The position numbers were made by a program, and so were the translations under genes. Below are positions 13,961 to 61,490 of a stretch of 64,000 nt of DNA, piece by piece. Each line of letters begins with the position of its first letter. The first letter of the stretch is position 1. The DNA comes from Fimbriimonas ginsengisoli Gsoil 348 (lineage in GTDB: Bacteria; Armatimonadota; Fimbriimonadia; Fimbriimonadales; Fimbriimonadaceae): assembly GCA_945881865.1 (NCBI GenBank), contig CAMCVK010000001.1, forward strand, positions 124,001-188,000, read 5' to 3'. Below the pieces are notes generated by a model. It was not told the DNA's origin and searched no databases. It saw nothing but the letters and a program-made list of their open reading frames with translations.

Positions 13961-13966
13961 TCCGTC

Positions 13967-15037: not shown

Positions 15038-15847
<810 letters not shown>

Positions 15848-15872
15848 GAAGTTAGGAGGCGAACAAACCCTT

Positions 15873-15903: not shown

Positions 15904-15910
15904 CAAACCC

Positions 15911-16129
15911 ATGAAAACTTTCTCGATCCTCGCCCTTTTCGCCGCCCTCCTCTGCGTTGGCTGCAACGGTGCTTCCGAAGGCAGTGCCGTCGAGACCAAA
16001 GCTTCCGACGTTAAAGTTGAGCTGACCCCAGAGCAGCAACAACAAAACGAAGCCGGGAAGAACAATCCGAACTACGACCCGTCCGAAGACGCCGCGAAAG
16101 CCCGCCAGGGCAAAGCAAACGGCAAGTAA
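15911..16129 (+). CDS. small predicted lipoprotein
   Basis: A 72-residue exported lipoprotein. MKTFSILALFAALLCVGC is a signal peptide with lipobox LCVGC; the mature 50-55 residues are polar, rich in Gln, Asn and Ala, and without a known domain. The ATG at 15911 is preferred over an in-frame GTG at 15884, which falls inside the preceding terminator stem. There is no ribosome-binding site, as the start follows the terminator T-run by a few bases. The function is unknown. Confidence 0.6.
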   Translation: MKTFSILALFAALLCVGCNGASEGSAVETKASDVKVELTPEQQQQNEAGKNNPNYDPSEDAAKARQGKANGK

Positions 16130-16203
16130 GCCCATGCCTGCCTGGTTCCGCGCGGAAACCAGGTAGGCGAACCCCACACTCCGGCAGAAATTCTTGCTAA
16201 TCT

Positions 16204-16503
16204 ATGAGCATGCGCAACGACGCGGATCACGCCGCCCTTCTCGCCAGGGTCCTCAAGCGCCAATCTCGCCTGGGACTCGCGGTGGCCGCCGTTTTTGTCG
16301 TGGTGCTCGTTGGCCTTCCGCTGGCCAATATGTTTTCGCCCGCCTCGGTTGAATTCAAAGTAGGCGGATTCACCGCAACGTGGCTTTTCCTCGGCGTTCT
16401 TTTCTACATCGTGACTGCCGGCCTCGCCTTCGTATTCGTTAACGCCTCGAACAAGATCGAAGACGAAACCATCGCCGAATACCGAGGCAAAGCGAAGCTA
16501 TGA
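16204..16503 (+). CDS. DUF485 family membrane protein
   Basis: A 99-residue protein with two transmembrane helices (LAVAAVFVVVLVGLPLANMF and TATWLFLGVLFYIVTAGLAFVFV), the DUF485/YjcH layout. In many bacteria such a gene precedes and overlaps an acetate-type symporter (actP), as here: the stop overlaps the next ATG by 4 bases. It probably helps assembly or regulation of the symporter. ATG 16204 is listed; ATG 16210 is an alternative, because TAATCT (16198-16203) would be a -10 box six bases before it. Confidence 0.85.
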   Translation: MSMRNDADHAALLARVLKRQSRLGLAVAAVFVVVLVGLPLANMFSPASVEFKVGGFTATWLFLGVLFYIVTAGLAFVFVNASNKIEDETIAEYRGKAKL

Positions 16504-18488: not shown

Positions 18489-18493
18489 ATTGC

Positions 18494-18516
18494 CGGGCGG
18501 TAGGCGCTACCGCCCG
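18494..18516. terminator. hairpin between convergent genes
   Basis: CGGGCGGTAG-GCG-CTACCGCCCG is a perfect 10-bp stem at 18494-18516. It lies just after the symporter stop and contains the stop codon of the gene on the other strand. No T-run follows on either side, so termination would rely on the hairpin alone. Confidence 0.5.
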
Positions 18517-19226
18517 TCGAAGCTGCGGTTGATCTCGCCCTTCACTTCCACCCAAATGTGGTGCTTTTTCCAGTGCGCGATCACGCGCGGGAAGTATCCG
18601 AAGATGTTCAGAAAATCGCGGTGGATGTCTAGTATCGCAGCGAACTCCTCGCCGATCCGCCGCCGCCGCATGATCATAGATAGATCGTACGCGGTGTAGA
18701 AAAGCCATCCCGAGCACGCCCAGAGCGAGAGCGACATGCCCTCACTGCTCACCTTCCCGGCGACCCCGAAAACCCCAAGCGCAAAAAGCGATGCGATCCA
18801 GGGCAGAAAGAAGAACCCGACGAAGCTGAAATCTCGGCCGCAGACGAGGGCGTAGCAGGACTGAAGCGCGATCGCCACGAATAAGGGCCAGACGAAGCCC
18901 CCGCGTGCGACAATCTCATGGAGGACCCAAGAGAGCGAGAGTCCAAGCAATGGCAGCATCCAGGCCGAAACTTTCGCTTCAATCGGCAGCTCTCGCTTAA
19001 AAATGCGAAATAGGTCCAGCCCGATGACCACCGCCAGCCAGAAGAATACGGAAGTCCGAACGCCCATATCCGGCCACGGCAAATAGGAGGCGGCAAGTAT
19101 CAATCCCGTGAATAACGTATTCCCGTGGACCACCGTGCGAAGGAATCGCAGGCGGTCCCGGTAGCGGGAGGCACCTACGTTCCCTTCGACCTCTAACGGA
19201 CCGGGAACGTAGTTCGGGATGATCAT
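18507..19226 (-). CDS. multi-pass membrane protein, Bax inhibitor-1-like
   Basis: A 239-residue protein with about seven hydrophobic segments. The C-terminal stretch YTAYDLSMIMRRRRIGEEFAAILDIHRDFLNIFGYF resembles the BI-1/YccA family signature, in which an acidic residue after an A-Y-T-x-Y-D turn precedes a D-(F/I)-N-(I/L)-F helix. BI-1 proteins are membrane calcium-leak channels or stress proteins. The match is from pattern alone and the rest is divergent, so the family is tentative. It starts 14 bases after the M16 peptidase gene and is likely cotranscribed. Confidence 0.55.
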   Translation of the reverse strand: MIIPNYVPGPLEVEGNVGASRYRDRLRFLRTVVHGNTLFTGLILAASYLPWPDMGVRTSVFFWLAVVIGLDLFRIFKRELPIEAKVSAWMLPLLGLSLSWVLHEIVARGGFVWPLFVAIALQSCYALVCGRDFSFVGFFFLPWIASLFALGVFGVAGKVSSEGMSLSLWACSGWLFYTAYDLSMIMRRRRIGEEFAAILDIHRDFLNIFGYFPRVIAHWKKHHIWVEVKGEINRSFDGR

Positions 19227-19240
19227 GCCAGGTAAAAACG

Positions 19241-47193: not shown

Positions 47194-48477
47194 ATGATGC
47201 AGGACTGGTTTCCCGACGCTAAGCTAGGCATTTTCATCCACTACGGCATTTACGCCGTGAACGGCATCGCCGAGAGTTGGTCATTTTTTGGCGGGCATAT
47301 TAGCCACGCCGATTACATGAAGCAGCTGGACGGTTTCACCGCCGAGAAGTATGACCCCGAGGAGTGGTGCGACCTGTTCGTTCGAGCCGGTGCCAAGTAC
47401 GCGGTTCTAACCACGAAGCACCACGACGGGGTGGCGCTGTGGGACACCAAGGCGAACGACCTGAGCGTCGTGCAGAAGACCCCCGCCGGCCGGGACCTCA
47501 TCACCCCGTATGTGGAAGCCTGCCGCAAGTACGGCCTCAAAGTTGGCTTCTACTATTCCCACCTCGACTGGACCCACCCCGACTACGCCACGATTCGCCC
47601 CAAGAAGCACTCGGTTGAGATGCCCGACCCGGATGGTTATGGCAAGCACGGATTTTCGTTCCCGCCGCGCGGCGAGGAAGACGAGGGCCGCTGGGCAAAC
47701 TTCATCAAGTTTCATCGCGCCCAGCTAGAGGAGCTCTCGACCCAGTTCGGCCAGATCGACATCTACTGGTTCGATGGCGAATGGGAGCGCGACCCGGAGC
47801 AGTTCGACATGGCCGGGCTTCGCGAGCAGCTAACCGCCTGGCAACCGAAGGCAATTTTCAACAGCCGCCTCCTCGACCACGGCGACTATGCCACGCCCGA
47901 GCAGGGCATTCCCATCAACCCGCCGGAAGGGCCCTGGGAGTTCTGCGTCACCATCAACGACTCGTGGGGCTATCAAACCCACGACCACAACCACAAGTCG
48001 GTTCGGCAGATCGTCCGGATGTTCGCCGAGACGATCGGCATGGGCGGAAACATGCTCCTCGACGTCGGCCCATACGCGGACGGCTCGCTTCAGCCGGAGC
48101 AGGTGAAGCGACTCGAGGGCCTCGGCGACTGGATCGGCCGACACAAAGAAGCCATCTACGGAACCGTTGCCGGTCTGCCGCTGGGCTTGTTCTACGGTGC
48201 GTCCACATTCAGCAAGGACCACAAAACGCTGTACCTGTTCTTCTTCGATCGACCGTTCGACGAGATCGCGGTGAAGGGGCTCCAGAGCCCGGTCAAGCGC
48301 GTAACCGTGCTTTCGAACGGACGCGAGCTCGATCATCGGCGAATCGGTGGCCTTGGCCACACTCCCGGAATCGAGTGGATCAGCATTCCGGAAGAGATCA
48401 TCGACGACAACGCGACCGTTATCAAGTTGGAGTTTGACGAGCCGGCGAAGGTGTACACCGGAACCGGTCGCGGCTAA
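47194..48477 (+). CDS. GH29 alpha-L-fucosidase
   Basis: A 427-residue glycoside hydrolase. WFPDAKLGIFIHYGIYAV, AKYAVLTTKHHDGVALWDT and KVGFYYSHLDW are GH29 hallmarks, and the nucleophile Asp is D194 in IYWFDGEW. The C-terminal beta domain is short (about residues 340-427). It has no signal peptide, so it acts in the cytoplasm, perhaps on imported fuco-oligosaccharides. ATG 47194 lies 47 bases from the divergent Cys-rich gene. Its stop overlaps the convergent last gene of the large operon by 4 bases. Confidence 0.92.
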   Translation: MMQDWFPDAKLGIFIHYGIYAVNGIAESWSFFGGHISHADYMKQLDGFTAEKYDPEEWCDLFVRAGAKYAVLTTKHHDGVALWDTKANDLSVVQKTPAGRDLITPYVEACRKYGLKVGFYYSHLDWTHPDYATIRPKKHSVEMPDPDGYGKHGFSFPPRGEEDEGRWANFIKFHRAQLEELSTQFGQIDIYWFDGEWERDPEQFDMAGLREQLTAWQPKAIFNSRLLDHGDYATPEQGIPINPPEGPWEFCVTINDSWGYQTHDHNHKSVRQIVRMFAETIGMGGNMLLDVGPYADGSLQPEQVKRLEGLGDWIGRHKEAIYGTVAGLPLGLFYGASTFSKDHKTLYLFFFDRPFDEIAVKGLQSPVKRVTVLSNGRELDHRRIGGLGHTPGIEWISIPEEIIDDNATVIKLEFDEPAKVYTGTGRG

Positions 48478-48770
48478 CCCTCAACCAAAAGCGCGAGCCG
48501 CCGCACCGCATCGTCGTTGCGGCCGGCTCGCCGTTGAAGCTCCAAGAGGCGGCGTGAAAGTGGAAGATATGCATCTTCCATCGCGTTCGTGAGAGATAGC
48601 CGAGCCTGGAGGATTTTCGTCTCCTGCCCCCACTGCCCGGTTCGCTGGGCGTCGCCGTGGGCGGCCTCCAGGAGCGTTCGCGCGATATCTCGATCGTCAG
48701 AGGTCAAGAACGCAAATGTTGCATTGCCTTCCATCTGGGCGATCTCGTAACCAAGTTCAATCTCGCTCAT
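48474..48770 (-). CDS. 98-residue helical protein, last gene of the tubulin/Hsp70 operon
   Basis: A small all-helical, acidic-basic protein, with no signal peptide. The arrangement of two helical pairs (LEAAHGDAQRTGQWGQETKI and LLELQRRAGRNDDAVRRLAL) is faintly like a tetratricopeptide unit. I recognise no family. It overlaps the MotB-like stop by 4 bases, so it is translated with the operon; a small adaptor or immunity-like role is only a guess. Its end overlaps the convergent fucosidase gene. Confidence 0.55.
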   Translation of the reverse strand: MSEIELGYEIAQMEGNATFAFLTSDDRDIARTLLEAAHGDAQRTGQWGQETKILQARLSLTNAMEDAYLPLSRRLLELQRRAGRNDDAVRRLALLVEG

Positions 48771-49495
48771 TTCAGGTTTAGGTCTGGTTCCGGCCGGTCT
48801 CCGTAAAAGACGATGATGTCCACGCGGCCAGCGGCCCCTCGCACTCCGGCGGACGCACGGCTGTAAAGCTCGGCCTTCCCGTAGTCGATGGCGAATCGGG
48901 GATCAATTTTCCCCTCCGATTTGGCTTCTTCTTTGGTTCGCGCGATGGCGCCTTGCGCAACAAAGAAGTCGTAAACCGCCTGAGCCCGCCGCACTGAGAC
49001 CTCGCGGCTGCTCATGCCACTGGCCTCGCCGGGTTCGGTGATTCCATGAAAGTACACGTACGTCGCCTGGCGTTCCACCATCGCCTTTTGAATTACTTTT
49101 GCGAGTTGAGCAAGCGTTCCGCGGGCGTCTGGCCTCAGGCGAAGCCCTCCCCTTTCGAACAGCCCCGGCACCTCGATACGTTGGTAGGAGCCGTTCGTCC
49201 AGACCCGGAGCAGAAGCGTTCTATCCGGAAGTCGTATCTCAATATTCCGCTTTTTGTCGTACTCGTTATCTCTCTGGTTGATCGGATTCGGCTTGAGCTC
49301 TGCGTAGGAGCCGTCTTTGAGAACTGCCACGATGCCGTCCTTCACGATCGTTTGCCGCTCGTCGCGATTCATATCGGCAAGACTTTTGCTGAGCGCGATG
49401 CTGCAAATCGCAAAAATAAAGGAAAGCGCAATCGTCACGTCGGCAAAAGCCACGAACGGGTTGGGGGCAAGACGAGTACGGGAGCGACGTGCCAT
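48767..49495 (-). CDS. MotB/ZorB-like membrane protein with OmpA-type domain
   Basis: A 242-residue protein. One transmembrane helix (residues 13-36) carries an acidic residue at its start (Asp19 in FVAFADVTIALSFIFAI), the place of the proton-binding Asp of MotB, ExbD and ZorB. A periplasmic OmpA-like domain spans about residues 110-215, including VYFHGITEPGEA and SVRRAQAVYDFFVAQG, which should bind peptidoglycan. It follows the MotA-like gene by 7 bases. With it, an ion-driven stator-like channel is expected. Confidence 0.8.
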   Translation of the reverse strand: MARRSRTRLAPNPFVAFADVTIALSFIFAICSIALSKSLADMNRDERQTIVKDGIVAVLKDGSYAELKPNPINQRDNEYDKKRNIEIRLPDRTLLLRVWTNGSYQRIEVPGLFERGGLRLRPDARGTLAQLAKVIQKAMVERQATYVYFHGITEPGEASGMSSREVSVRRAQAVYDFFVAQGAIARTKEEAKSEGKIDPRFAIDYGKAELYSRASAGVRGAAGRVDIIVFYGDRPEPDLNLK

Positions 49496-49502
49496 CTCGA
49501 AG

Positions 49503-51038
49503 TTACGGCTTCCCCAGTAGCTTCTTCCAGATCGGCCGCTCCATACGGGCCGTTACCTGCTCCAAGCTTTCGTTTGCGCTGGCCGCTTCCTGCTTCGCTT
49601 GTTCGACGCTCTTCCGAAGGTCGGCAAACTCCGATTCGATTCTTCCCAGCGACAAGCGGATCGAAGCCTCGGCTGTTTCCAAGTCCGCCCTGGCGGCGGC
49701 AATCTGGTTGGCATCGCGGTACTGCAATTCTTTGGTCTCGGTGACGGCACCGTTCAAGTCACGCATGAGGGCGGCGGCCGGCACACTGAGCGGCATTGCA
49801 TGGAGCATCTCAGAGTATTGGCTGAGCAGACTGCGAAGTCGTCCCAGCTCATCGGCAAAGCTTCCCACGACTCCCCGCAATTCGGCCGTTTGCTGTTGCA
49901 TCGACGCTTCAAGCCGGGCGTCACTAGCGACGAGCGAATCACGGACGCCCTGCGAAACGCCTTCGCTGGCCCCGACGAAGCTGTTGATGCTCGCTTCTGC
50001 CTTGACGACGGCAAGTGAGAAACCCGCCGAATTCTTCAGGAGGGGCTCGAGGCCCTCGATGGCTTTCACCTGCTTTTCCAGCCAAGTGTCCATCGAGGTC
50101 GCCGTGTTGTGGATCGGCTTCACAACGATACGCAGTTTCTCGGTCGCGTCCCTCAGCTGGCCCATGACCTCTTGCATTTGGCCCGCATTCGAATTGATCG
50201 TAGATGCCGCAAGCTCGAACTTGCCGATGAGCGCGAGTAGGGCTTCGTTCGTCGCCTTCACACGAACAAACGCTTCTTCAGTGGTATGGGCGGTCCTGCG
50301 AAGCTCAGTGATACCGTTGGCGAAAACGGTGGCCACCTTGCCAATCTCAAAGGCGAGGGCCTCGCGCATCCCGCGCACAATCGAATCCGCAAGCGCGTTC
50401 CCGGTTGCGGTCGCAAGCGATGGCATCACTTCCTCGGCCAGGTACCGCTCCAGCTCTCGCTCAAAACCTTCTAGTTTCTCGTCAAACCGATTCAGCTGCC
50501 AGCTGAGCTGTAGCGTCACCAGCACCCCAAACAGAGCCGAGACAAACGCACTTCCAAAGCCACCAACAATGACGAGGATCTGGGTTTTCAGGGTCTCCGT
50601 GTCGCTCCCGAGATTGCGAAAGCCGGTCACCGCAAGCGTCAGTCCGAGAAGTGTTCCTGCCAAGCCAAGATACACCGCCGAGGCGGCCACGGAACGAGTG
50701 AACGCCGCACCCGCGCCAAACTCATCCACCACCTGACCGGCGACTTGGTTGGCCACCCCGCTCGAGGCGCCGCCGGCGATCCGTTTTCTCAGGCTTTCGC
50801 GCGCACGAACAATCCATGCGGCCCCTAGCTCGGCGAAAAAGTCCTTGCCTCCACTGGCAGGAATCGCCCTCGAGGAAGCGCGCAAAGTCAGCCACGCCGC
50901 AACCCAGACCGCCGCGAGAAGAAAAGCGAAGGCAACGGTGACGAATCCCTTCGCATCGTTCGGCAAAAAGAGTCCATAAACACCGGCGCCCGCCACCGTC
51001 CCAACGACGACGGCGGGCAGAAGGGCAGACGGCTTCAT
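49503..51038 (-). CDS. MotA/ExbB/ZorA-like channel protein with long coiled tail
   Basis: A 511-residue protein with four transmembrane helices: about 8-25, 32-52, 119-139 and 154-180. The last two (YLGLAGTLLGLTLAVTGF and VGGFGSAFVSALFGVLVTLQ) match the MotA/TolQ/ExbB channel pattern of small residues. The remaining 330 residues form a long cytoplasmic coiled coil, as in ZorA of Zorya systems, where the tail acts as a shaft. It precedes the MotB-like gene and follows the tubulin-like gene by 3 bases. A proton- or sodium-driven motor is inferred; the family match is good, the machine unknown. Confidence 0.78.
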   Translation of the reverse strand: MKPSALLPAVVVGTVAGAGVYGLFLPNDAKGFVTVAFAFLLAAVWVAAWLTLRASSRAIPASGGKDFFAELGAAWIVRARESLRKRIAGGASSGVANQVAGQVVDEFGAGAAFTRSVAASAVYLGLAGTLLGLTLAVTGFRNLGSDTETLKTQILVIVGGFGSAFVSALFGVLVTLQLSWQLNRFDEKLEGFERELERYLAEEVMPSLATATGNALADSIVRGMREALAFEIGKVATVFANGITELRRTAHTTEEAFVRVKATNEALLALIGKFELAASTINSNAGQMQEVMGQLRDATEKLRIVVKPIHNTATSMDTWLEKQVKAIEGLEPLLKNSAGFSLAVVKAEASINSFVGASEGVSQGVRDSLVASDARLEASMQQQTAELRGVVGSFADELGRLRSLLSQYSEMLHAMPLSVPAAALMRDLNGAVTETKELQYRDANQIAAARADLETAEASIRLSLGRIESEFADLRKSVEQAKQEAASANESLEQVTARMERPIWKKLLGKP

Positions 51039-51041
51039 GAA

Positions 51042-54000
51042 TTAGCCAAAGTTACCTTCTGGTGCGACAACCGGTCCTGCGTTCGGGACCACCGCCGGTG
51101 CCGCAACCGCAGCTCCGCGCAGGGCCGCGATCTCGTAGTAGCCCGGCATGAGGAGCGAGTAGCCGCAGTTCGGACAGGTCTCGGGCAGCGGTAGCTGGTT
51201 CCCCGCTGGTCGCAAAAGCCTCTTGCATGAATCGGTCGGGCAGTAGTAACCCGCCGGTTTTTGTTGGCCGTTGAAGTCCAGGCCCGCCGCACCTGCCGCG
51301 CGGAAGTACTCCTCCGGCGTTTGGTGATAGTCCGTGATGTACGTGACGCAGTAGTCGCGGAACGCATCCTGATTCGTCCGAATCAGCTTGACAAGGGCGT
51401 CTCGCACGAAGTTCCTTGGAATCAGCTGCACCGCTTGGTTGCCCGCCTGCACCGGCACATATCGGTACCGGAGGCTAGGATAGAGCACGGTGTGCTGGCG
51501 AATCATCCGGTCCAGTTCGATCAGCAGCTTGGCGCGGTTCACCGCATTGGCCGCCTGGCCGAACTGCTGCCGCAGATAGATTCGGTAGATTCCGTTCTCG
51601 AACGTTGCAATCTTGTAGCCAGCCATTTCGATTTCCTCCGGCAGCCGAATTGGCGTCTGCCCTGGAATCGATAGGAAGTACGGTTCGTCGACCGCGTGAT
51701 GGTTCTGGATGACTCCCGTTGCCAAACCGAAGAGGAACAAGCTCATCGACTCATCCAAATCGTGGTGGAGCGGCTGCCCGTCCAGCGTACGCCAAACGAC
51801 GTCGGTTCGCGATTCCAGCCGTCCTTGGTTCATCCCTTCGGCCTGCGCGTGGAAGGCGGCGAAGGCGTCGATGCCTACGATATCGCCCGCCGCGAAGGTC
51901 GTTCGTCCTTGAAGAATGAGCAGTTTCGTGGGGTCCTGTGTAGGCACGATGTTGTTCGCCGGATCGATGAGGTCCTGCAGAGCTTCCCGAGTCTGAACGT
52001 ACGGGAACACTTCCGCCTTTCCGTTAAAGATGAACGCAAACCGAGGTGTTCGAAGGTCTTGGCCCTGAATCGGCCCCAGGGGAGACTCGTTGTCGTTCAC
52101 CTGGATCAGCGCGGCAGCTTGCTCGGCGACCTGGAGTAGCGCCGGCACCGCGCCTGCCGCCTGGTTATTCTGCTCACCAAAGAGTTCAACCAATGCATTG
52201 CGCTCCCAAAGGTGCATAAAGTAAGCCTTCTTGACCCGATTGATGAACTCCAGGGTGAGGGCAGCTTTCTGCTCGTCTGCGGTTTGTTCATCTTGCAGCG
52301 CGGTGGTTCGGCCGTCGAATGGGCTCTTGTTATGCTCCGCCGAAAGTGCGCTGTTGAGGAGTGGCCAATCGATGATGGTGCGCGCCATGGCGTAGGCGAG
52401 CCCAACCCGATTTGGGCGAATGCGGATATCCCGCTCTGGCACCACGCGCCTCATGGCCTCGGTGAGCTCAGCCGGAACCGTTAATCCAGGTTCAAAGAGC
52501 GCAACCCCCCGCACGTTCGGCCGCTCGCCGGTTCGCCGGGCCGCTTCTGCGGCGGCCAACGAACCGATGGATTGCGTCAGCGGCACCAGCGCCATTTCGT
52601 GGCCGTCCAACCGGGCCTTTACGCGCTGGGCGAATTCTCGGATCTCCGCCAGTTGGTCCGACTCAACGATCCCGCAGGCGTCGTCGATTCGCACTGTGTA
52701 GTACTGCCGCGCGGCGTGGTACCAGTCTTCGGCCAGTTTGGCTAGGGCCATGCCTTTGAAGCCCAAGCCGCCAAGCAGCTTGCTGTTGTTGACCTCGTCC
52801 AGCATCGCTTCCTTCTCGCGCATCACGCGGCCGCGATCGCCTTCGCGCTCGTGCTCGGCCTGACTGGTCGATTGCTCGCGCATCTCGCCGATTCGAAGCA
52901 AGATCGCGTCGGCGAAGGTTCGGCACCAATTCGGGCCCTCTTCCATCGTGAGTAATGCCTGATCCATGCGCTTTTGAAGTCGCGATAGGACCGTGCCGGT
53001 GGTTGTCTTCTTGTTCTTCTCGATGGCTTCGAGGACCGCCCGAGGCCCGATTCCGCCGTTAATCTGCGTGCGAGCCGCGAAGCCTTCCTCGATCTGATCC
53101 TTGGCAGTTTTGATCGCCCCGAGGTCGCCGCGCGCCGCCGCCGTTTGTGCACTCTTTAGCCGAACATCAACCGCATCCTCGATATTCTCCTGGCCGCTCT
53201 CCCGATTGAGAAGCTGCTGCCGCATATCTTCGCGAGTCAGTTGCGTCTCCGCCGCGTTCAGCAAAACAGCCGCCGCGCCCGGATCGATGCCCGGGGAGGC
53301 TAACCACTCGCCAAGCGCCGAAGCGATAACCGACGCGGCACCGCCCTTACCAATGTGGTCTGCCGGAAACTCGAGCGTGGCTGCGCCCAAGCTCTGGAAG
53401 TTCATGTGTCGGCCCCGGCTCTTTACGCCAAAGAGCGATCCGGCCGGGTCAACAATCTTCGAATAGACTTCGTCGGCCATGGAGGTGCACGCGGCGGTGT
53501 ACAAGTATTCGGCGGCCGCCGTGTAAGTTCCCTTGAAGTCGGCCGGAGTTGCTCCCGCCGGCATCAAGAGAAGCGAAGACTGGTACGGTGCCGTTGCGTA
53601 GTACTCGATGGGAGCGGGAAAAACCGCCGGAAGCGGAAGCGACTGGCGATAGTGCGAGCCATCCGTAAGATAGTGGTTGAGTTCCCGCAGCGCCTGGTAG
53701 GCGTTTGCGCGATGTCGGACCGAACCGCCCTGCGGGTGCGGCATTCCAAAGACACCGTAGCTCTGGACGCCGATTCCGATGGACCGTGCATACGCCCGAA
53801 GGTAGTAACCCAGGTCGATAAAGGCACCGCTGCAGGTGCCGCCGGTAAGAGTTCCGCAAACAAAGATCCGAATGCCATCTCCGCCCACTTCGGCCTGGGG
53901 CAGGCCAGCCGCCTGGGCGGCGACCGCCAGATTAAGCTGCTGCAAGCGGTTCAGCCTTGCCTTTACCGCGTCATGGATCTTTACAAAGACGTTCGGGTGC

Positions 54001-54341
54001 AGAATGCTGGCTCGCCCGATCATCCGGACATTGCTCGCTCCGTGATCCGAAGCGGCGTTGCCCTGGAAGACTTGCCGGTCCGACCATCGCTCGAACTCGA
54101 TTGAGCTGAGGCTTGCCGGGTTGTGGACAAATGTTCGGAAGCTCTGCTCCGGAAGCCCAACGTGGACCCAGTCCTTCTTCGCGAGCGAAAGCCCACGGAT
54201 GCGGTCGGTGTCGAACGCAACTACCTGTAGCCAGGGCGCGGCGTCCATCGATCCAAACCGTGCGACCACCCGATCGATGACTTCCGAGACGATTTGTGCG
54301 CCGGAGGTACCGACGCCGATTAAAAGTGTTTTGTGTGGCAT
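51042..54341 (-). CDS. large tubulin/FtsZ-like GTPase with C-terminal zinc ribbon
   Basis: A 1099-residue protein starting MPHKTLLIGVGTSG, the first nucleotide-binding loop. The tubulin signature GGTGSG appears as GGTCSG at residues 167-172 within FVCGTLTGGTCSGAFIDLG. The GTPase-like core is followed by about 600 residues of helical and mixed segments. A zinc ribbon near the C-terminus has CPTDSC and CPNC. It belongs to the Tubulin_2-type family, whose members are uncharacterised. In the operon it lies between membrane proteins, so it probably binds or polymerises at the inner membrane. GTP binding is likely; polymerisation is unproven. Confidence 0.8.
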   Translation of the reverse strand: MPHKTLLIGVGTSGAQIVSEVIDRVVARFGSMDAAPWLQVVAFDTDRIRGLSLAKKDWVHVGLPEQSFRTFVHNPASLSSIEFERWSDRQVFQGNAASDHGASNVRMIGRASILHPNVFVKIHDAVKARLNRLQQLNLAVAAQAAGLPQAEVGGDGIRIFVCGTLTGGTCSGAFIDLGYYLRAYARSIGIGVQSYGVFGMPHPQGGSVRHRANAYQALRELNHYLTDGSHYRQSLPLPAVFPAPIEYYATAPYQSSLLLMPAGATPADFKGTYTAAAEYLYTAACTSMADEVYSKIVDPAGSLFGVKSRGRHMNFQSLGAATLEFPADHIGKGGAASVIASALGEWLASPGIDPGAAAVLLNAAETQLTREDMRQQLLNRESGQENIEDAVDVRLKSAQTAAARGDLGAIKTAKDQIEEGFAARTQINGGIGPRAVLEAIEKNKKTTTGTVLSRLQKRMDQALLTMEEGPNWCRTFADAILLRIGEMREQSTSQAEHEREGDRGRVMREKEAMLDEVNNSKLLGGLGFKGMALAKLAEDWYHAARQYYTVRIDDACGIVESDQLAEIREFAQRVKARLDGHEMALVPLTQSIGSLAAAEAARRTGERPNVRGVALFEPGLTVPAELTEAMRRVVPERDIRIRPNRVGLAYAMARTIIDWPLLNSALSAEHNKSPFDGRTTALQDEQTADEQKAALTLEFINRVKKAYFMHLWERNALVELFGEQNNQAAGAVPALLQVAEQAAALIQVNDNESPLGPIQGQDLRTPRFAFIFNGKAEVFPYVQTREALQDLIDPANNIVPTQDPTKLLILQGRTTFAAGDIVGIDAFAAFHAQAEGMNQGRLESRTDVVWRTLDGQPLHHDLDESMSLFLFGLATGVIQNHHAVDEPYFLSIPGQTPIRLPEEIEMAGYKIATFENGIYRIYLRQQFGQAANAVNRAKLLIELDRMIRQHTVLYPSLRYRYVPVQAGNQAVQLIPRNFVRDALVKLIRTNQDAFRDYCVTYITDYHQTPEEYFRAAGAAGLDFNGQQKPAGYYCPTDSCKRLLRPAGNQLPLPETCPNCGYSLLMPGYYEIAALRGAAVAAPAVVPNAGPVVAPEGNFG

Positions 54342-54354
54342 TCTTTAAAATTCC

Positions 54355-54909
54355 TTAGAATCCGCCCTTGTCGCCGCCAGTCGTTGCGCCCGCGGTCGTA
54401 CCGGCAGTAGTTGCTCCGCCGGTGGTTGCTCCGGCGTCGGTGCCGTAGCCTCCCGCCCCAGCATCTGTCCCGTACCCACCGTCGCCGGCGGTGCTTGGCT
54501 CGCCTGAGGTCGTCCCGGCCTTGTCCTTTTCTTTTTCCTTGTCTTTGTCCTTCTCTTGGTTCTTCTGGTTGGCCGTCAGAAGTTTTTGAAACTCTGTGTT
54601 GGTGGCATACAGCCCGATCGGAATCAAAAGAATGCCAACGATGATGCCGACCGCGAGACCGGTTTTGGTGGCGCGCACGGCGCCCTTGCTTTCCATTCCG
54701 GAGCGGAAGAAGAGGAAGGCGATGCCGTAAGCAAGCATGAGAGCAAGAATGACCCACATACCCAACTGCAGCCAGAAGGTTTGCGTGAGCATTGGCGTGT
54801 TGTCCACCGGTTTTTCCGGTGCTTGCTTGGGAACTTCCTGTGCCCAGGAAAGTGCGCCGAATGCAAGGCCCGCGAGCGATAGAGGGATACGATATTTCAT
54901 AAGATTCAC
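54355..54909 (-). CDS. small two-helix membrane protein with low-complexity tail
   Basis: A 184-residue protein. A signal-like segment (residues 1-24, cleaved after Ala-Gln) precedes a Pro-rich stretch, transmembrane helices at about 46-68 and 83-102, and a charged KDKEKEKDK region. The tail is Gly/Thr/Ala repeats (GYGTDAG, TTGGATT). No family is known to me. Its start overlaps the vWA-like gene's stop by 4 bases; it is probably a membrane partner of the tubulin-like protein. Confidence 0.6.
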   Translation of the reverse strand: MNLMKYRIPLSLAGLAFGALSWAQEVPKQAPEKPVDNTPMLTQTFWLQLGMWVILALMLAYGIAFLFFRSGMESKGAVRATKTGLAVGIIVGILLIPIGLYATNTEFQKLLTANQKNQEKDKDKEKEKDKAGTTSGEPSTAGDGGYGTDAGAGGYGTDAGATTGGATTAGTTAGATTGGDKGGF

Positions 54910-56165
54910 TTTTCCTTTGTCGTCGTGAGCACAACCTCAAAAGTGGCTTGCTGGTTGTCGGCGAATTTCACCCTAGTCTCTTTTTTGAGTGCGGCATCCG
55001 AAACGGTGCGGCCATCGATGACCAAGGTGAAGGGGCGTTTGGCCCGCAGGACCGGCGTGCTGGCGAACCACCCGAGCTCGATGGTTGCGACAATATTGCC
55101 GGAACCAGCCGTATTAACTTTGGCGGTGGGAACAAGGAGCGCGCCGTCGGCTCCCGGCTTAGAAGATGTCGTTTCGATCTTCACGGTCTTGCCACGGGTC
55201 AGGAAGACCGTGTTGCTACCGGCGATCTGGAAGCGATATCGGGTTCGCAGGAGCAATCCTGCCCCGGCTCCGGCCCCGATGATGGCGACGCCAAGCAAGA
55301 TGATTGGCAGCACGTTCGGCGATGGGCTGGGTTCCGGCCGCCGGTTGCCGCCCGGCTTCGGGTCTGGGTCGGTCCGCGGCCGAATGGGCGGCTCTGCCAC
55401 AAACTTGACCGGTCCGTAGGTCCAGATGTACACATCAAACGGCCGCTGTCCTCGACCTGGCGCCTCGGTTGTGTAGGGGCTGCTGTCGGAATACGCCACA
55501 AAGTCCGTACCGTTCAGCAGTCCCTCGCGTGCATTGATCGCCCGGATGCGCTGATCGTTCCCCGGATTGTCCGGATCCTGATTGATCCCCATTGCCGTCA
55601 TCTGAATCACAACCGTCTGGCGGTTCTTCGGATTGGCGTTGATGAAGTCGAGTAGCTCTCGCCGCGCGCCGGAACTGTCATGCCCGCGCCCCTTGTATCC
55701 CGGTTCGGCTAACGACGTGCCCGGCATCTTTGCAATCAGCTTGCTAAGATTGTCAGAAGTCAGATACTGAGACTGTGTGACGTGGGGTCCGTCCTTGATC
55801 AGCTTGAGCTGATAAGGAAAGAAGAACAGCCGATGCCGCTGTTCCATCGGGATTCCCGCATTTCCTTGCGGAAAGCCAAAATCCTTACCAAACCGCAGAA
55901 TGAAGCTTTTCGTAAAAGCAATGTAAGCCTCCTTCGTGTTGAATTGGGACGTATCGACCAAAAAGACCAGATTAAGCGGCGTCCGGACCAGCGCCGCCGG
56001 GTCCTTCTGCGTACCCGAACGACTCGCGAACTCACGCGCAATTTGGGTGGCGACGTCTTTGGCCGCCTTTTCGGATTTGCTCAATTCCCGATCCTGGGCA
56101 CTTGCCATGCCGGCGAGGCCAAGGAACGAGACAAGCCCAACAATGATGAGATGGAATGATTTCAT
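54906..56165 (-). CDS. exported vWA-like single-pass membrane protein
   Basis: A 419-residue protein. A signal peptide (MKSFHLIIVGLVSFLGLAGMASA) leads to a vWA-like fold with LNLVFLVDTSQF (a degenerate MIDAS, D71-T-S) and an alpha/beta pattern to about residue 250. A Pro-rich linker precedes one transmembrane helix (286-306). The last 113 residues are a beta-rich cytoplasmic domain. The ATG at 56165 is preferred over an upstream frame inside the propeller gene. A vWA domain outside the membrane suggests adhesion or metal-dependent partner binding. Confidence 0.7.
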   Translation of the reverse strand: MKSFHLIIVGLVSFLGLAGMASAQDRELSKSEKAAKDVATQIAREFASRSGTQKDPAALVRTPLNLVFLVDTSQFNTKEAYIAFTKSFILRFGKDFGFPQGNAGIPMEQRHRLFFFPYQLKLIKDGPHVTQSQYLTSDNLSKLIAKMPGTSLAEPGYKGRGHDSSGARRELLDFINANPKNRQTVVIQMTAMGINQDPDNPGNDQRIRAINAREGLLNGTDFVAYSDSSPYTTEAPGRGQRPFDVYIWTYGPVKFVAEPPIRPRTDPDPKPGGNRRPEPSPSPNVLPIILLGVAIIGAGAGAGLLLRTRYRFQIAGSNTVFLTRGKTVKIETTSSKPGADGALLVPTAKVNTAGSGNIVATIELGWFASTPVLRAKRPFTLVIDGRTVSDAALKKETRVKFADNQQATFEVVLTTTKEK

Positions 56166-57544
56166 GCTGTTACGCTGTAGCGAGCAAAAATGAGGTCCGT
56201 ACCGTGGAACCGAACAAAGAGGAATCCGTCCTCCGTACCCAGCAACCGCGCAAACTCCAAATTTCCCGCAATTTGATTTTCCGCTGTTAGCACTTGACCC
56301 GTTGTGATGTTTCTCAATTCCAGGTGGCAATGCACCCTTTCTTTACACAGAATCACGACCACCTGGGTTGCACCCGAAAGCCCGATCGTCGCAAGGGCGC
56401 TCAAACTATCTGGCAGTGTAAACGCAACGCGATCTTCGATGAAGTTCTCACGGTAGACCAGCGCCCTCGTGGCCGAGAGTCCGGCTCCGCCGCCGCCCTG
56501 GCGCACGGTCACCAGGAGGTTGGGAGATCCCGTGAAAAACATGGTCCGTGAACGGTCGATTCCGAGATCGGTTTTCGTGGTGCCAGAGGCGAAGGGGTGC
56601 TTCAAAGCGAACGATTGCGCCCGAACATTGCCAAGGTTTTGGCTCGGAATGACGACGGTATCGCCTTGCAGCCATGGATCCTGAAGATCGCTTTCCTTCA
56701 CCTGAGCATCCACGACGCCGTTCCAGACGCCGGTCGCGCTTACGAGCCCGACATTTCCGTCGGCAAGCTGAACGATGACGCCTTCCGGCGATCCCAGGAA
56801 GGACAGCACCTTCTCCGTTCCTGCCCGTACGACCGTCTCCGTCCAACCGCCTTCCGAGGAAAGCGTACGCAAGACGAGACCTCGGTCGTGGGCCGCGAGC
56901 AAATGTCCACCGGCCAGAGCGTAGATCTGGTGGGCGTCTTCACCGGTGACGACGCTCGCCGTACCGGTAAGAATGTCTACATGGACGATGCCGGGCTTCA
57001 CGCGGGCAAAAACATTCCAACCGGACGCCGTGAGTCTTCCAACGGTGGGATAGTTCAGGCTGATTCGGGTCGGAATCGAGCCATCGAGCTCGTCCCAGAT
57101 GACCAGGTCCCGATCCGACATAACGACGGTTTGGCCAGAGGTCCGCACCGCGTCAAGCGGCACTGGGTTCTGGCGAAAATGCGCAGTACCGCGTCGCTCT
57201 GCCGTGAAGTCAAACGCGTTCTTTTTGAGCGAGACGGTGCGGGTGACGCCGGGTCCGCCAAAGTTAGGCCAATCCACAACGTATGAATCCGTCGGCTCGC
57301 CGACTTCCTCTCCGTGCCGATAGGCGCGGCCGCTTCGCAGGTCCTGGCTGCGCGCGAGAGGTCGTCGACAGTTGGGGCAAGTCCACCGGCTGTCGCCATC
57401 GGCAATCACGGCAATGTTCCGCTCGCCGCAGCCATACGGGCACTCTTGCAGCCTCGGCCAGCCACAATGTACGCAGAACCGGGATGTCCCGTTGGGCAAG
57501 TTCGCCGGCGGAAACTTCCCACAGCAGAGGCAAGCTTGGTTCAT
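56162..57544 (-). CDS. zinc-ribbon plus beta-propeller-like protein
   Basis: A 460-residue protein. The first 60 residues hold nine Cys in a ribbon pattern (CLCCGK, FCVHCG, CPYGCG, CPNC), probably two zinc sites. The rest repeats short beta segments with Val/Leu-rich strands and WD-like or kelch-like spacing (DRDLVIWDELDGSIP, GIVHVDILTGTASVV), suggesting a propeller. There is no signal peptide, so it acts in the cytoplasm. Its ends overlap both neighbours by 4 bases. The fold is an inference. Confidence 0.6.
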   Translation of the reverse strand: MNQACLCCGKFPPANLPNGTSRFCVHCGWPRLQECPYGCGERNIAVIADGDSRWTCPNCRRPLARSQDLRSGRAYRHGEEVGEPTDSYVVDWPNFGGPGVTRTVSLKKNAFDFTAERRGTAHFRQNPVPLDAVRTSGQTVVMSDRDLVIWDELDGSIPTRISLNYPTVGRLTASGWNVFARVKPGIVHVDILTGTASVVTGEDAHQIYALAGGHLLAAHDRGLVLRTLSSEGGWTETVVRAGTEKVLSFLGSPEGVIVQLADGNVGLVSATGVWNGVVDAQVKESDLQDPWLQGDTVVIPSQNLGNVRAQSFALKHPFASGTTKTDLGIDRSRTMFFTGSPNLLVTVRQGGGGAGLSATRALVYRENFIEDRVAFTLPDSLSALATIGLSGATQVVVILCKERVHCHLELRNITTGQVLTAENQIAGNLEFARLLGTEDGFLFVRFHGTDLIFARYSVTA

Positions 57545-58830
57545 TCTCGTGTTAAATCCTCGTTCGATGTCTCGGCGGTGTCGCTGACTTGCACCTTGGG
57601 TACCTCGCTGAAAGGCAACGACTCTTGCGCCGTAGGCTTGACCTCTGCGGTCGGTACCGGTGCTTGCGGAGTTTCCTCCTCGGTTGAGGGTGACTCTACC
57701 GGGACGACAACCGGTGCCGGTGGCGCGGAGACCGCCGCTGGAGTGGTGGGCGGAGTCAAAGTCCCCTGCACGTAAACCGTCACGAACGCCTTCTGACCGA
57801 CGCGATTCCCGTTTATCCAGCCGGGGGCATTCACCGCCGCCACCATTCCGTACAAACCTGGATTCGAAGTTGCGACCTCGCCATCCTTGTTATGCCGCTC
57901 GGAAGAAAATCGCTCCGAGTTCACGACCGGCAGTAGGATCTGGTAGCCCTTATCCTTCAGTTGCGCGGTCAAATAGGTACGTATCGCCTCCAGCCTCCGT
58001 TTCATCGTGAACGCCTCCGATTGACGCTCGAACGGCATTAGCGTCGGGTCAAGCTTGTTCGGCAGTAGAGACTGGTAAGCGGATCGGTCGTCGAGCCGGT
58101 CGGCGGCCAGCGATTGAACATGCTGGTCGGTCGACTGCAGAATTGACTTCACCTCGGTGAAGAATTGAAAAACCGGCCCGGAGGCAGCTTCAGCGGCGAG
58201 CAGCTCGGCGTCCTCTAACAGCCTCTGGTGCAGCTCCCGATACTGTTCGTCAGTCGTGGGAACGACTTCAATTCCGGCACTCTCATTCGCCGCATCGCGC
58301 TCGCGCTCGGCAGTGGCTTTGGCCGCTTCAGCGTCGGCCCTTGCCGTTTCGGCTTCTTTTGCACGTTGCTCAAACGCGGCCACTTGGTTCCGTAGGCCCC
58401 CAATGTTCTCACGGAGCGTGGGAAGTTGATCACCGATCGCCAAGATTTTGGAGTCGTGGAGCTTGGCGGCGGCCTCCAATGCATCGATGTGGTCTTTTGC
58501 CGCCGTCAATGCCTTCTGGAATAACTCCTTCGTCGTCGCCAGTTCGTCCATTACTCCTTCGAGATTCTTCATCTGGTCGGAGACTTTCTTGATTTTCTGC
58601 TCGACGGCGTCGTTTTGTTGGTTCATTTCTTTTCTAAGATCCGAAAGGAGCGACGCGACGTCCGGGTCGGAAGACTTCGTACGTCGGGAATTGAGAAGTT
58701 GAAAAACGGCAAGAATGAGCACCAGTAGGAGCGTCAGCCCAACGAACAACCACAACGGGCCCAAATCAACCTGCCCAATCGTGACTCCACCTGAGTTCTC
58801 CCCCGCGCCAAATAATTCGACTTTTTCCAT
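57541..58830 (-). CDS. membrane-anchored coiled-coil protein
   Basis: A 429-residue protein. One transmembrane helix (about residues 25-45: LWLFVGLTLLLVLILAVFQLL) is followed by a coiled coil at roughly 60-200 (KEMNQQNDAVEQKIKKVSDQ..., AKEAETARADAEAAKATAER). A compact helical domain spans about 205-345. A Pro/Val-rich tail ends the chain. It recalls membrane scaffold proteins but belongs to no family I know. It follows the Hsp70-like gene by 9 bases. Its job may be to tether the ATPase to the membrane. Confidence 0.6.
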   Translation of the reverse strand: MEKVELFGAGENSGGVTIGQVDLGPLWLFVGLTLLLVLILAVFQLLNSRRTKSSDPDVASLLSDLRKEMNQQNDAVEQKIKKVSDQMKNLEGVMDELATTKELFQKALTAAKDHIDALEAAAKLHDSKILAIGDQLPTLRENIGGLRNQVAAFEQRAKEAETARADAEAAKATAERERDAANESAGIEVVPTTDEQYRELHQRLLEDAELLAAEAASGPVFQFFTEVKSILQSTDQHVQSLAADRLDDRSAYQSLLPNKLDPTLMPFERQSEAFTMKRRLEAIRTYLTAQLKDKGYQILLPVVNSERFSSERHNKDGEVATSNPGLYGMVAAVNAPGWINGNRVGQKAFVTVYVQGTLTPPTTPAAVSAPPAPVVVPVESPSTEEETPQAPVPTAEVKPTAQESLPFSEVPKVQVSDTAETSNEDLTRE

Positions 58831-58839
58831 AGCTTTAGA

Positions 58840-61422
58840 TTAGAACTCCAGCGTAAAGCCCTTGCTGGCCGAGTCGGTTGGGGAAACGCCGTCTACTTTG
58901 AACGTGATTTCCGCCTTTGCCTGCGTGACTACGGCTTCCGCCACGATGGTCGTCGGTACGTCGTAAGGCCCGAACCGGAACCGCTTTACGTCGACCGTCT
59001 CGGTGCCCGTGGGAGTTGACTTGCCCGGCAGCATCGCCTTGGTGGGCACCGCCTCTTTAACGGGCAGGGCCGCTTGCATCAGCACTTCCATCGTCTCCCC
59101 GATTTCCAACTGGCGCGAGACCTCCTTCACAATCTTCGCACGAACGGCGAGCCCCAGATCGACCTTCAAAAAGACGTCGGCTTCCTGTCTTAGATCAACT
59201 GCGGTAACCGTGTCCGTGAGAGTTAGACCGACCGGTAGCGTCCGAACCGAGACGTCGTACTTTCTCGCCGCCCCGCGGCAGACGGCAACATCGACGTAGT
59301 CGCCAAACGTGACCAACCGTTCGCGATTGCCCGCCGAGAAAAGCTCGTGAACCTTCTCGCGGAATCGCGACAACCTCGACGATCCTCCGATGATGGCCAC
59401 ATGCTGAATGCCGGCAACCGTAACACCGGTTGCCTTGAGGAACTGCAGCACACCAACAAAAAGCTCATCTACCGGCTTGTTGACCGCCCAATCGTAGTGG
59501 ACACGGAGGAGCCGCGGTTCCCAAGTGAAATCTCCGCCCCTGAAGCCGCTCGTGGTACCCACGAACTTGACCTCGGCGGTCAGGTCGGCATCTTCGCCCT
59601 GGACCGAAGAGCGCGTGGACTTGGTGGTTGCCTTCAGCACCGGGTGCTGGTACGCAATCGCGTTGGCAAACAGCCGCTTCGCAACCTCAACTTCTCCGGC
59701 AAGCCGCGGAAAGCGATTGAGCCAACACTTGCTGTCGGCCTGCGAGGGCTCCCCGGTTGCTTCGTTAAACTCTGTCCAACTACCCAGATCTGCGCCGGTG
59801 TTTCGAGCATAGCTGCCCGTAACCAATGCATCGATCACGGACTTTAGCGCCTGCACGCGGACTTTCTGGTCCTCCTCCGTCGGCGAAACATTCCGGTGAG
59901 GACCGGGATAGTTGAGGTCCGGAAACACCCAGCTCATGCCCATGCGGAAGGTCACCAAAGTGCCCCCAAACTGGTTCTTCCCCACTACCGCGCTGCCGTT
60001 CATCTGCTCCCGGAAGTAAAGAATGCCGCTGTCGATACCAATCGTCGCCAGCGTGATGTCGGTCGTGCCACCGCCGCAGTCCAGGACAAGCAGTTTGTCG
60101 CCGTCCTTGAACTGTCGATGCGTTGAGTTGCCGCGGAGAACCTCCAGGGCACCGCCATCCGGTTCCAGCATGGTGCTGACTCGCCATCCGCGCGACTCGT
60201 CCTCCATTCCGGCTCGCTTTGCAGCGGCCAAAATTCGCTCTACATAGTTGCGGTACAGGTGGCCTTTTTCGGGATCATCCGATTTGTCCAGCACCGGAAC
60301 CGTGAGCACGAACTCCCGAGTAAGACGGCCGTCTGGGTCAATACCGAGGAGGTGCGGCTCGATCAACTCGCTGAGCAACCGCGAAAAATAGAACTCCAAA
60401 ACGTCGTCGGCGTCGGCTCCACCGGGAAGCGGCGCTTCTTCCTCACGCCGCAACAGCGTCTTCAAGTTCAAAATCTTATCGCTGTCGGAGATTCCCTCCA
60501 GACCGGAAAGTGCCCGCCAGGCAGACCGGTTGGTTGACGGGGCGTAAATCTCGGTCGGCCACCGATCCGATCCCTCTCCGCCGTCGGGCGATTTCAGCCG
60601 GATAGCGGTTGGCTCCGCCCCGTCGATCGTGGGCTGAATCACAAACGAGCTTGTATTACTCGTGCCAAAGTCGATGGCGATCAACAAGCCCGGCTTACGG
60701 CTCGACTTCGCCCCCGGAGGCAAACAAAGGAAGAGCTTTTTCAGCAGTGTGCCATCCCCGGAGCGAAGCTCTACCGCGCCCGTCCCTGGGATGCCTGTGG
60801 CTTTGAAAATCAGCTCCACCTTTCCGCCGGCGGGAAGCTGGAAGCCAACCGCTTTATCGATGGAACTCAGTTCGAAATCGCCCGAAACCGTTGGCGCGCC
60901 GATCGAGATCGGCAGCAAGCCATTGTTGTACAGGGTAACCGCGCGCTCCCGGCTGCCCGGTAAAAATAGGAGGAGCTCGGCGGAAGCCGAGATTCTCACT
61001 TCGCCGGAGAGCTTGCGAAGTCGAACCGTGCGCGACCGCACGAGAGGCGCCGAAAAGATGTTGTTCGGGTCGCGTGGACCGTCGGCCGAGGCGAATTCAC
61101 CGATGAGGACATCGGCCGAACCAAAGGAAATCTCGGCGCTCGGCGGTACCGACTTCCAATTGACCTCAAACTGGTTTTCTGTTCCGGCAGGCCGGAAGCT
61201 CGCCTTAACTTCGCTTCCTGTGCCCGTCGTCTGAACCTCGAGAAGCGCGGTATCGCCGTCCCGGCTGACCAGCGAAACTTCTCCCTGCCCTTTCGGGTCG
61301 TTCACAAGCGTCACTTCCCCTGCCGAGCAGCCACACGCAGGGCAGAAAGTCCAGCCATCACCACTTAAGGTCAAAAGGGGGCATTGTGCTTTAGAGACTC
61401 CTGTTCCCCGGCAAGTTCTCAT
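58840..61422 (-). CDS. Hsp70/actin-fold ATPase with N-terminal zinc ribbon
   Basis: An 860-residue protein and the first gene of the operon. Residues 1-35 hold a zinc-ribbon-like set (C4, C14, C28, C31, C33). About 200 beta-rich residues follow. The Hsp70-like ATPase begins near residue 246 with phosphate 1 loop IAIDFGTSNTSSF, phosphate 2 LVLDCGGGTTDITLA, and an adenosine-type HVAIIGGSSRLSRF. A substrate-domain-like beta part ends the chain. It resembles atypical DnaK-like proteins of conflict systems. The ATG follows TATACT plus 7 bases, so the message may be leaderless. Confidence 0.8.
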   Translation of the reverse strand: MRTCRGTGVSKAQCPLLTLSGDGWTFCPACGCSAGEVTLVNDPKGQGEVSLVSRDGDTALLEVQTTGTGSEVKASFRPAGTENQFEVNWKSVPPSAEISFGSADVLIGEFASADGPRDPNNIFSAPLVRSRTVRLRKLSGEVRISASAELLLFLPGSRERAVTLYNNGLLPISIGAPTVSGDFELSSIDKAVGFQLPAGGKVELIFKATGIPGTGAVELRSGDGTLLKKLFLCLPPGAKSSRKPGLLIAIDFGTSNTSSFVIQPTIDGAEPTAIRLKSPDGGEGSDRWPTEIYAPSTNRSAWRALSGLEGISDSDKILNLKTLLRREEEAPLPGGADADDVLEFYFSRLLSELIEPHLLGIDPDGRLTREFVLTVPVLDKSDDPEKGHLYRNYVERILAAAKRAGMEDESRGWRVSTMLEPDGGALEVLRGNSTHRQFKDGDKLLVLDCGGGTTDITLATIGIDSGILYFREQMNGSAVVGKNQFGGTLVTFRMGMSWVFPDLNYPGPHRNVSPTEEDQKVRVQALKSVIDALVTGSYARNTGADLGSWTEFNEATGEPSQADSKCWLNRFPRLAGEVEVAKRLFANAIAYQHPVLKATTKSTRSSVQGEDADLTAEVKFVGTTSGFRGGDFTWEPRLLRVHYDWAVNKPVDELFVGVLQFLKATGVTVAGIQHVAIIGGSSRLSRFREKVHELFSAGNRERLVTFGDYVDVAVCRGAARKYDVSVRTLPVGLTLTDTVTAVDLRQEADVFLKVDLGLAVRAKIVKEVSRQLEIGETMEVLMQAALPVKEAVPTKAMLPGKSTPTGTETVDVKRFRFGPYDVPTTIVAEAVVTQAKAEITFKVDGVSPTDSASKGFTLEF

Positions 61423-61429
61423 GGGGGGG

Positions 61430-61435
61430 AGTATA
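61430..61435 (-). promoter_or_regulatory. -10 box of the tubulin/Hsp70 operon
   Basis: On the minus strand TATACT is followed by CCCCCCC and then ATG of the Hsp70-like gene at 61422. This places the transcription start at the ATG. The region between the divergent genes is only 68 bases. No -35 box is clear. Confidence 0.45.
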
Positions 61436-61490
61436 CGACAAGCCTAATTGTGGGGCGTGACTTTTCTCACCTGGTTATACTCACGGCATC

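Follow-up and report, generated by a model that had tools for sequence, protein, structure and literature searches.

An FtsZl1 operon with a ZorAB/MotAB-type gene pair and an Hsp70-like module in a Fimbriimonas-like armatimonadote

What kind of machine would a bacterium build from a tubulin-like protein, an Hsp70-like ATPase and a membrane protein pair of the MotA/MotB type? The question is raised by nine minus-strand open reading frames, here called A to I, that occupy 61422-48474 of a 64,000-nucleotide stretch of DNA (the window; positions 124001-188000 of contig C1) in the 3.2-Mb draft genome (G000) of a Fimbriimonas-like armatimonadote. A first-pass annotation, made from the letters of the window, had described them as one nine-gene operon and as a set for which it knew no named system. 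The operon was borne out: all nine frames are intact, without internal stops, and from their coordinates the junctions are gaps of 9 (A-B), 13 (E-F), 3 (F-G) and 7 (G-H) bases or overlaps of 4 (B-C, C-D, D-E and H-I), the overlapping genes being probably translationally coupled. The second statement had to be given up, as operons of FtsZl1, vWA and OmpA genes were described in 2010 and conflict systems with tubulin, HSP70 and vWA proteins in 2020. Judged by the protein families that it encodes, the operon belongs to the FtsZl1 kind, resembles Zorya in its motor and falls within neither the Zorya nor the DO-GTPase systems. What appears new is that the gene after FtsZl1 encodes a ZorA/MotA-type channel subunit and that the "OmpA" protein is its ZorB/MotB-type partner.

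The motor-type pair beside FtsZl1

Three genes carry this finding.

51042..54341, minus strand: gene F, FtsZl1 (Tubulin_2) protein, 1099 amino acids (PF13809, 5.4e-39)
49503..51038, minus strand: gene G, ZorA/MotA/TolQ-type channel subunit, 511 amino acids (Pfam MotA_ExbB, 1.5e-6)
48767..49495, minus strand: gene H, ZorB/MotB-type subunit, 242 amino acids, with a transmembrane segment N12-P-F-V-A-F-A-D19 and an OmpA-like domain at 112-200

The first-pass annotation had listed tubulin-like, MotA-like, MotB-like and Hsp70-like members, and accepted Pfam matches identify all four: Tubulin_2 for F, MotA_ExbB for G, OmpA for H (PF00691, 5.2e-6, at the 27.2-bit cut-off) and HSP70 for A (2.4e-6). No accepted Pfam family was obtained for B, C, D, E or I. 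In F, the Tubulin_2 domain is N-terminal (residues 6-339 of 1099) and zinc-binding cysteines lie near the C-terminus (1034, 1039, 1056 and 1059); the FtsZl1 profile found no credible solved relative in the PDB. At three loci from another family of the order (L018, L019 and L020), F is directly followed by a second gene whose product begins with FYPTxVxxVGD, a tubulin-like start, and the two genes may be a pair of FtsZl1 paralogues.

G contains the core motifs GLxGTLxGL (125-133) and AFxSA (164-168), which are followed by a helical cytoplasmic tail of ~300 residues. The best solved relative of the G family profile is ZorA of the Shewanella Zorya I complex (PDB 8vvn, E 1.9e-15), and ZorA is reached by the family profile only, as window G alone gave no match in the PDB with phmmer. 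The PADLOC ZorA1 model was matched by 12 of 12 aligned family members, weakly by window G (1.4e-5). GLxGTxxG and AF hardly vary among the 65 G proteins compared, 63 of which keep T129. The H family profile likewise has ZorB of 8vvn as its best solved relative (E 1.1e-11), with the transmembrane Asp aligned, and window H matches PADLOC ZorB1 weakly (7e-3). When 65 H proteins were aligned, all 64 residues at the column of this Asp (D19) were Asp, with one gap, and arginines 170 and 224 were invariant, again with one gap at 224. The resemblance to Zorya that the first-pass annotation had pointed out is thus supported for both subunits, and its expectation of partners other than ZorC, ZorD and ZorE agrees with the absence of PADLOC matches to ZorC, ZorD, ZorE, ZorF and ZorG among the nine window proteins.

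Zorya activity requires the ZorB Asp, peptidoglycan binding and the ZorA tail, and the key ZorB residues are the transmembrane Asp (D24/D21) and the peptidoglycan-site His (H186/H141) (PMC11890865). As in the ZorAB core (PDB 8vvn, 8vvi and 8qyd), a MotA-type subunit with a long helical cytoplasmic tail is combined here with a MotB-type subunit that has an intramembrane Asp and an OmpA-like domain; unlike in Zorya, the operon partners are tubulin-like, vWA-like and Hsp70-like proteins with a probable GrpE-type factor, and the peptidoglycan-site His is replaced by Ile in the window clade. The MotA_ExbB channel core is shared with flagellar MotAB, TolQR and ExbBD, and the OmpA-type periplasmic domain with MotB, but G has a long cytoplasmic tail and flagellar, Tol and Ton genes are not beside it.

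FtsZl1 was defined by Makarova and Koonin in 2010, and a vWA/FtsZl1/OmpA membrane-remodelling system was predicted from its gene context; a protein kinase and a P-loop GTPase are frequent but not universal partners, vWA and OmpA proteins are neighbours too, and the OmpA-domain neighbour was read as porin- or adhesin-like (PMC2875224). The names MotA, TolQ and DnaK are absent from the main text of that paper, supplements aside (PMC2875224). The window operon fits the description in that F is FtsZl1, a vWA protein precedes it, an OmpA-domain protein follows it and membrane proteins dominate. It departs from the description in that the OmpA protein is the motor's B subunit, not a porin or adhesin, and in that the nine proteins include neither a kinase match in Pfam nor a Walker A motif. 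A literature search of open-licence PMC text, without supplements, found no paper linking FtsZl1 with ZorAB, and such a link may have been described elsewhere.

Two other arrangements of such genes were seen. In G165 (L123, 11014-12802), the MotA-like gene is followed by a tandem of MotB-like genes, each of which encodes the transmembrane Asp. Locus L129 (G035:C5:325000-344900) contains, at 9361-16202, another ZorAB-like pair (MotA_ExbB 0.00094, OmpA 0.00064), followed by genes for a zinc-binding protein, two vWA proteins, a PP2C phosphatase and a protein kinase and adjoining a Replic_Relax gene; the arrangement suggests a TerY-P-like triad attached to a motor of the ZorAB type.

The gene set in other genomes

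Is the motor pair a regular neighbour of FtsZl1? We fetched 79 FtsZl1 loci from GTDB genomes, a sample biased to relatives of the query, and 67 of them had enough downstream sequence to be tested. G and H come directly after F in 51 of these 67 loci, G alone in 2 and neither in 14; for cyanobacteria, F, G and H are adjacent in 49 of 55 testable loci. The full order A-B-C-D-F-G-H is present in two other Armatimonadota, G003 (L024/L030) and G165 (L123), at 20-35% identity (window against G003: F 24, G 24, H 34-35 and A 25%), and this shared order also appears new. Since the order is kept at such low identity, chance clustering can be rejected. Co-occurrence across genomes was a check proposed in the first-pass annotation, and its outcome is that the homologues are linked, not scattered, as one system.

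Parts of the set are found as well. G012 (L025/L032) has A-C-D-F without the motor, and the acidobacterial locus L076 has A-B-C-D-F without G-H as far as its contig reaches. D-F-G-H without A is present in G089 and G184 (L028 and L125), and D-E-F-G-H is encoded on plasmid 2 of Deinococcus deserti (profile E 2.1e-14 for G, 3.4e-37 for H and 4.8e-23 for D in a seven-protein search). As read from these gene neighbourhoods, a tubulin core (D-F, often with E) is accompanied by G-H as a motor module, by A-B-C as a chaperone module or by both. In a tree of the FtsZl1 domain, the motor-linked proteins form two separate clades with good support: the first, of 9 rows, is mostly armatimonadote (100/99), and the second, of 13 rows, is cyanobacterial (100/100). 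This would imply either an ancient association with losses or repeated recruitment.

The Deinococcus operons at L218 (18049-23236) and L219 (19495-23705) continue with genes for an LRV-repeat protein and a beta-helix protein, the latter being fused to a protein kinase in D. deserti (L218).

The chaperone module, the vWA-like protein and the surroundings

The other six genes and the presumed promoter region are as follows.

58840..61422, minus strand: gene A, Hsp70-like actin-fold ATPase, 860 amino acids (Pfam HSP70, 2.4e-6)
57541..58830, minus strand: gene B, membrane-anchored coiled-coil protein, 429 amino acids, transmembrane segment near 28-46
56162..57544, minus strand: gene C, double-zinc-ribbon protein, 460 amino acids, beta-rich remainder
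54906..56165, minus strand: gene D, 419 amino acids, with a signal peptide, a vWA-like domain (~45-260), one transmembrane segment (~288-305) and a C-terminal beta domain
54355..54909, minus strand: gene E, small membrane protein, 184 amino acids, two transmembrane segments, Gly/Thr-rich tail
48474..48770, minus strand: gene I, 98-amino-acid accessory protein with only a sub-threshold UBA_4 match (0.0036)
61423..61490, no strand: space between A and the aldolase gene, presumed operon promoter region (from coordinates)

A begins with a zinc ribbon (C14, C27 and C30), and a domain of ~200 residues precedes the ATPase domain. The phosphate and adenosine motifs of the ATPase, DFGTSNTS (251-), DCGGGTTD (448-455) and IGGSS (678-), are conserved in L024 and L025, and the best profile matches among solved chains are DnaK/SSB1/BiP. 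An FtsZl1 operon of G008 (L015, 2937-5258) encodes a 774-residue protein that has no Pfam match but shares an actin-fold-like phosphate motif; it was considered as a further member of the A family and set aside, because profile comparison gave no support.

B fits its earlier description as a coiled-coil membrane protein, and we would now read it as a probable GrpE-like partner of Hsp70. Its C-terminal domain, about residues 276-355, is GrpE-like: a profile of three family members gave a colinear alignment to GrpE from related genomes (22 proteins; hhalign probability 75.3, pairwise E 2.5e-5), compared with 0.2 or less for reversed and unrelated controls. The window B sequence alone does not reach GrpE (0.2%). 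Pfam GrpE matched neither B nor its relatives, except for the counterpart in the acidobacterial locus L076, where the protein in the B slot passes the cut-off and adjoins an HSP70 of 2.5e-25; a direct hmmsearch with the B family gave no match to that GrpE protein. Sequence comparison gives moderate support for reading A as an Hsp70 and B as its probable nucleotide-exchange factor, and the GrpE-like end of B appears to be new. C had been called a zinc-ribbon propeller. The zinc ribbon stands, with three CxxC pairs (at 5, 24 and 56) and a homologue in G003 (L030) whose DZR match (4.4e-6, 27.2 bits) is just below the cut-off of 27.3; the propeller is unproven, as the predicted model of C (predicted local distance difference test, pLDDT, 35) is too poor for a fold search.

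HSP70-GrpE pairs with tubulin and vWA proteins are known from the DO-GTPase/GAP1 conflict systems predicted by Kaur et al. in 2020, which are nearly absent from cyanobacteria (PMC7159879), and in that paper MotA and MotB are not mentioned. Like those systems, the operon encodes a tubulin-domain protein with a coiled-coil or helical tail, HSP70 with a probable GrpE-like partner, a vWA-like protein, zinc ribbons and membrane proteins; the systems are, however, defined by a TRAFAC DO-GTPase and GAP1, and the nine window proteins have neither a Walker A motif nor a GTPase match in Pfam.

For D, ATG 56165 is preferred as the start over the listed TTG 56330; with this start, D shares 4 bases with C and retains a signal peptide. 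The earlier call of a vWA-like protein gains moderate support from structure: the predicted model is weak (pLDDT 56), has no Pfam match behind it and gave no Foldseek match at E 0.001 or better, but a structural second look (VIA) returned nearly all vWA-type chains, the best being VWF A3 (Z 7.6, residues 45-245). A Z under 8 is weak by itself, yet with chains almost all of one type we consider a vWA fold a moderate case. The metal-ion-dependent adhesion site is degenerate (VDTSQF), so that metal binding is doubtful. Homologues of D hold the same slot beside FtsZl1 in Armatimonadota and Deinococcus. Homology with the cyanobacterial vWA protein was not supported, since hhalign with the profile of window D gave only 0.5% and no significant match, and the equivalence of the two is positional only. 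Small membrane proteins stand before F as positional counterparts of E in L015, L031, L032, L054 and the Deinococcus locus L218, and none does in L024; no counterpart of I was recognised in the other operons compared.

Upstream, a divergent class II aldolase gene is separated from A by a 68-base spacer, in which a sigma-70-like site was looked for and none was found. Downstream, a convergent alpha-L-fucosidase gene overlaps the operon end by 4 bases. Terminator-like sites were not enriched over shuffled sequences (18 against a mean of 16.4). Elsewhere in the window, at 12394-12538 on the minus strand, lies a cyclic di-AMP riboswitch (ydaO/yuaA), which scores 85.4 bits where the gathering score is 38.

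A possible mechanism and its rivals

How might these parts work together? The sequence establishes the parts with their motifs, linkage and kept order and the families of A, F, G and H, and it makes a moderate case for B and D; complex formation, stoichiometry, ion flow, polymerisation of F and a role in defence are inferred. G and H would assemble, in an expected ratio of 5:2, into a ZorAB/MotAB-type unit of the inner membrane, either an ion-driven motor or a gated channel. H would carry the ion-binding Asp and extend into the periplasm, and the state of the motor would be reported or transmitted by the long cytoplasmic tail of G. F (FtsZl1) would be the cytoplasmic partner that assembles or changes state upon motor gating. 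D, a periplasmic vWA protein with one transmembrane segment and a cytoplasmic tail, may serve as sensor or tether and C as adaptor, and A with B would make an Hsp70/GrpE-type ATP switch that controls the assembly or disassembly of F. In defence, a disturbance of the envelope would be sensed, as proposed for Zorya, and the tubulin/Hsp70 module would respond in place of ZorC-E. We regard the general scheme, a motor or channel that signals via its tail to FtsZl1, with a vWA sensor or tether, an Hsp70/GrpE pair that sets or resets the system and a defence or conflict role, as about equally apt to be right or wrong. Its most specific form, in which a ZorAB-type rotary motor drives or gates the tubulin-superfamily protein and Hsp70/GrpE is a reset switch, all in immunity, is tentative.

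Defence or conflict is favoured, and is more likely than division or motility, on account of the patchy distribution, the location of copies on plasmids and islands, a divergence greater than the host's and the likeness to ZorAB. Tubulin_2 is present in 12 of 61 genomes of the set of relatives and in 31-35 of 146 cyanobacteria. Same-genus orthologues of the flanking fucosidase and aldolase are mostly 60-78% identical, whereas F, G, H and A are 24-35% identical to their G003 counterparts, and the operon proteins are therefore not orthologues by simple vertical descent. At the flanks of the operon in G003 are genes for ArdC, an Abi_C protein and a serine recombinase, and a gene for a conjugative coupling protein lies further away. 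Plasmids of Deinococcus, Thermus, Meiothermus and others carry FtsZl1 genes, and on Thermus oshimai pTHEOS01 (L220) brxL is the second gene downstream of FtsZl1.

Several observations weigh against this interpretation. The T4-like loop of F is TGGTCSG (166-172), where the family consensus is GGGTG(S/T)G; the core is kept, but with two glycines changed GTP hydrolysis is uncertain. The peptidoglycan-site His, present in 58 of 65 H proteins, is Ile152 in window H and Ile or Leu in its two full-order counterparts (L024 and L123), where anchoring may differ. The window copy lies between ordinary flanks (fucosidase and aldolase) and has no G+C anomaly, and insertion at this site is not demonstrable, because the flank orthologues are not neighbours in relatives, the gene order around is not kept and no empty site was seen. 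The cyanobacterial cassette is one compact clade, as may result if it has long been inherited vertically in a housekeeping role. None of the window operon proteins is an evident effector, whether a nuclease or otherwise toxic.

On pTHEOS01 (L220), a single run at 6712-20777 comprises genes for a TROVE-domain protein, vWA, FtsZl1, a 677-residue protein without known family, brxL, a 3'-5' exonuclease and RecQ, a defence-like neighbourhood. On pRadio2 of Deinococcus radiophilus (L219, 12977-17270), FtsZl1 is shorter than that of D. deserti and, within the operon, is directly followed by an IS630 transposase gene, and the copy is therefore likely to be broken. No tRNA gene adjoins the window operon; at L123, two tRNA-Ala genes lie a few kb downstream.

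The main rival is a machine for membrane or envelope remodelling with no role in immunity, in which a tubulin-like polymer on the inner membrane is powered or positioned by the MotAB-like unit and regulated by vWA and Hsp70. This is the proposal made from gene context (PMC2875224), and it suits the many membrane proteins among the partners, the compact, clade-like cyanobacterial cassette and the ordinary chromosomal ground of the window copy. It accords poorly with the patchy distribution, with same-genus operons far more diverged than host genes, and with the mobile and defence-type neighbours in G003 and the plasmid location elsewhere; we consider it unlikely, if a serious contender.

Could the operon instead be a true Zorya type with a tubulin/Hsp70 effector, its ZorAB pair having descended from within Zorya? 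The best solved and PADLOC relatives are indeed ZorA and ZorB. However, no ZorC, D, E, F or G family is found, the window proteins are only weakly similar to ZorA1 and ZorB1, relatives include MotA, TolQ and OmpA proteins as well, the His for peptidoglycan binding is missing, and the constant component across loci is FtsZl1, not ZorAB, all of which makes this origin improbable. An engine for surface motility, adhesion or secretion, with the motor driving an external structure and FtsZl1 as a cytoplasmic track or scaffold, appears no better placed. MotAB-type motors power gliding, type 9 secretion and flagella, a periplasmic location is predicted for the vWA protein and small membrane proteins recur before F, but the operon has no appendage, adhesin or secretion gene, and G is the sole MotA_ExbB protein found in this genome. 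That two or three unrelated modules are merely adjacent, as loci with A, C, D and F without G-H or with D-F-G-H without A might suggest, is hardly credible: genes overlap and are probably coupled, and three operons with 20-35% identity share one gene order.

Within the FtsZ/tubulin superfamily, FtsZl1 has remained an orphan branch since 2010, credited with a role at the membrane but with no mechanism. If a ZorAB-type motor is its constant neighbour, the role of FtsZl1 becomes testable, and the systems are present in cultivable cyanobacteria and Deinococcus. The recurrence of the tubulin and motor part in cyanobacteria, Deinococcus and Armatimonadota makes it look like a genuine machine that is widespread and has yet to be characterised. 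Should the proposed scheme be true, ZorAB-like motors would plug into several cytoplasmic modules, and tubulin-fold and Hsp70-fold proteins would be tied to a proposed bacterial immune or envelope-sensing machine. Ion motive force would also be tied directly to a cytoskeletal element of bacteria, and this link between motor and tubulin is the part that we expect to surprise specialists.

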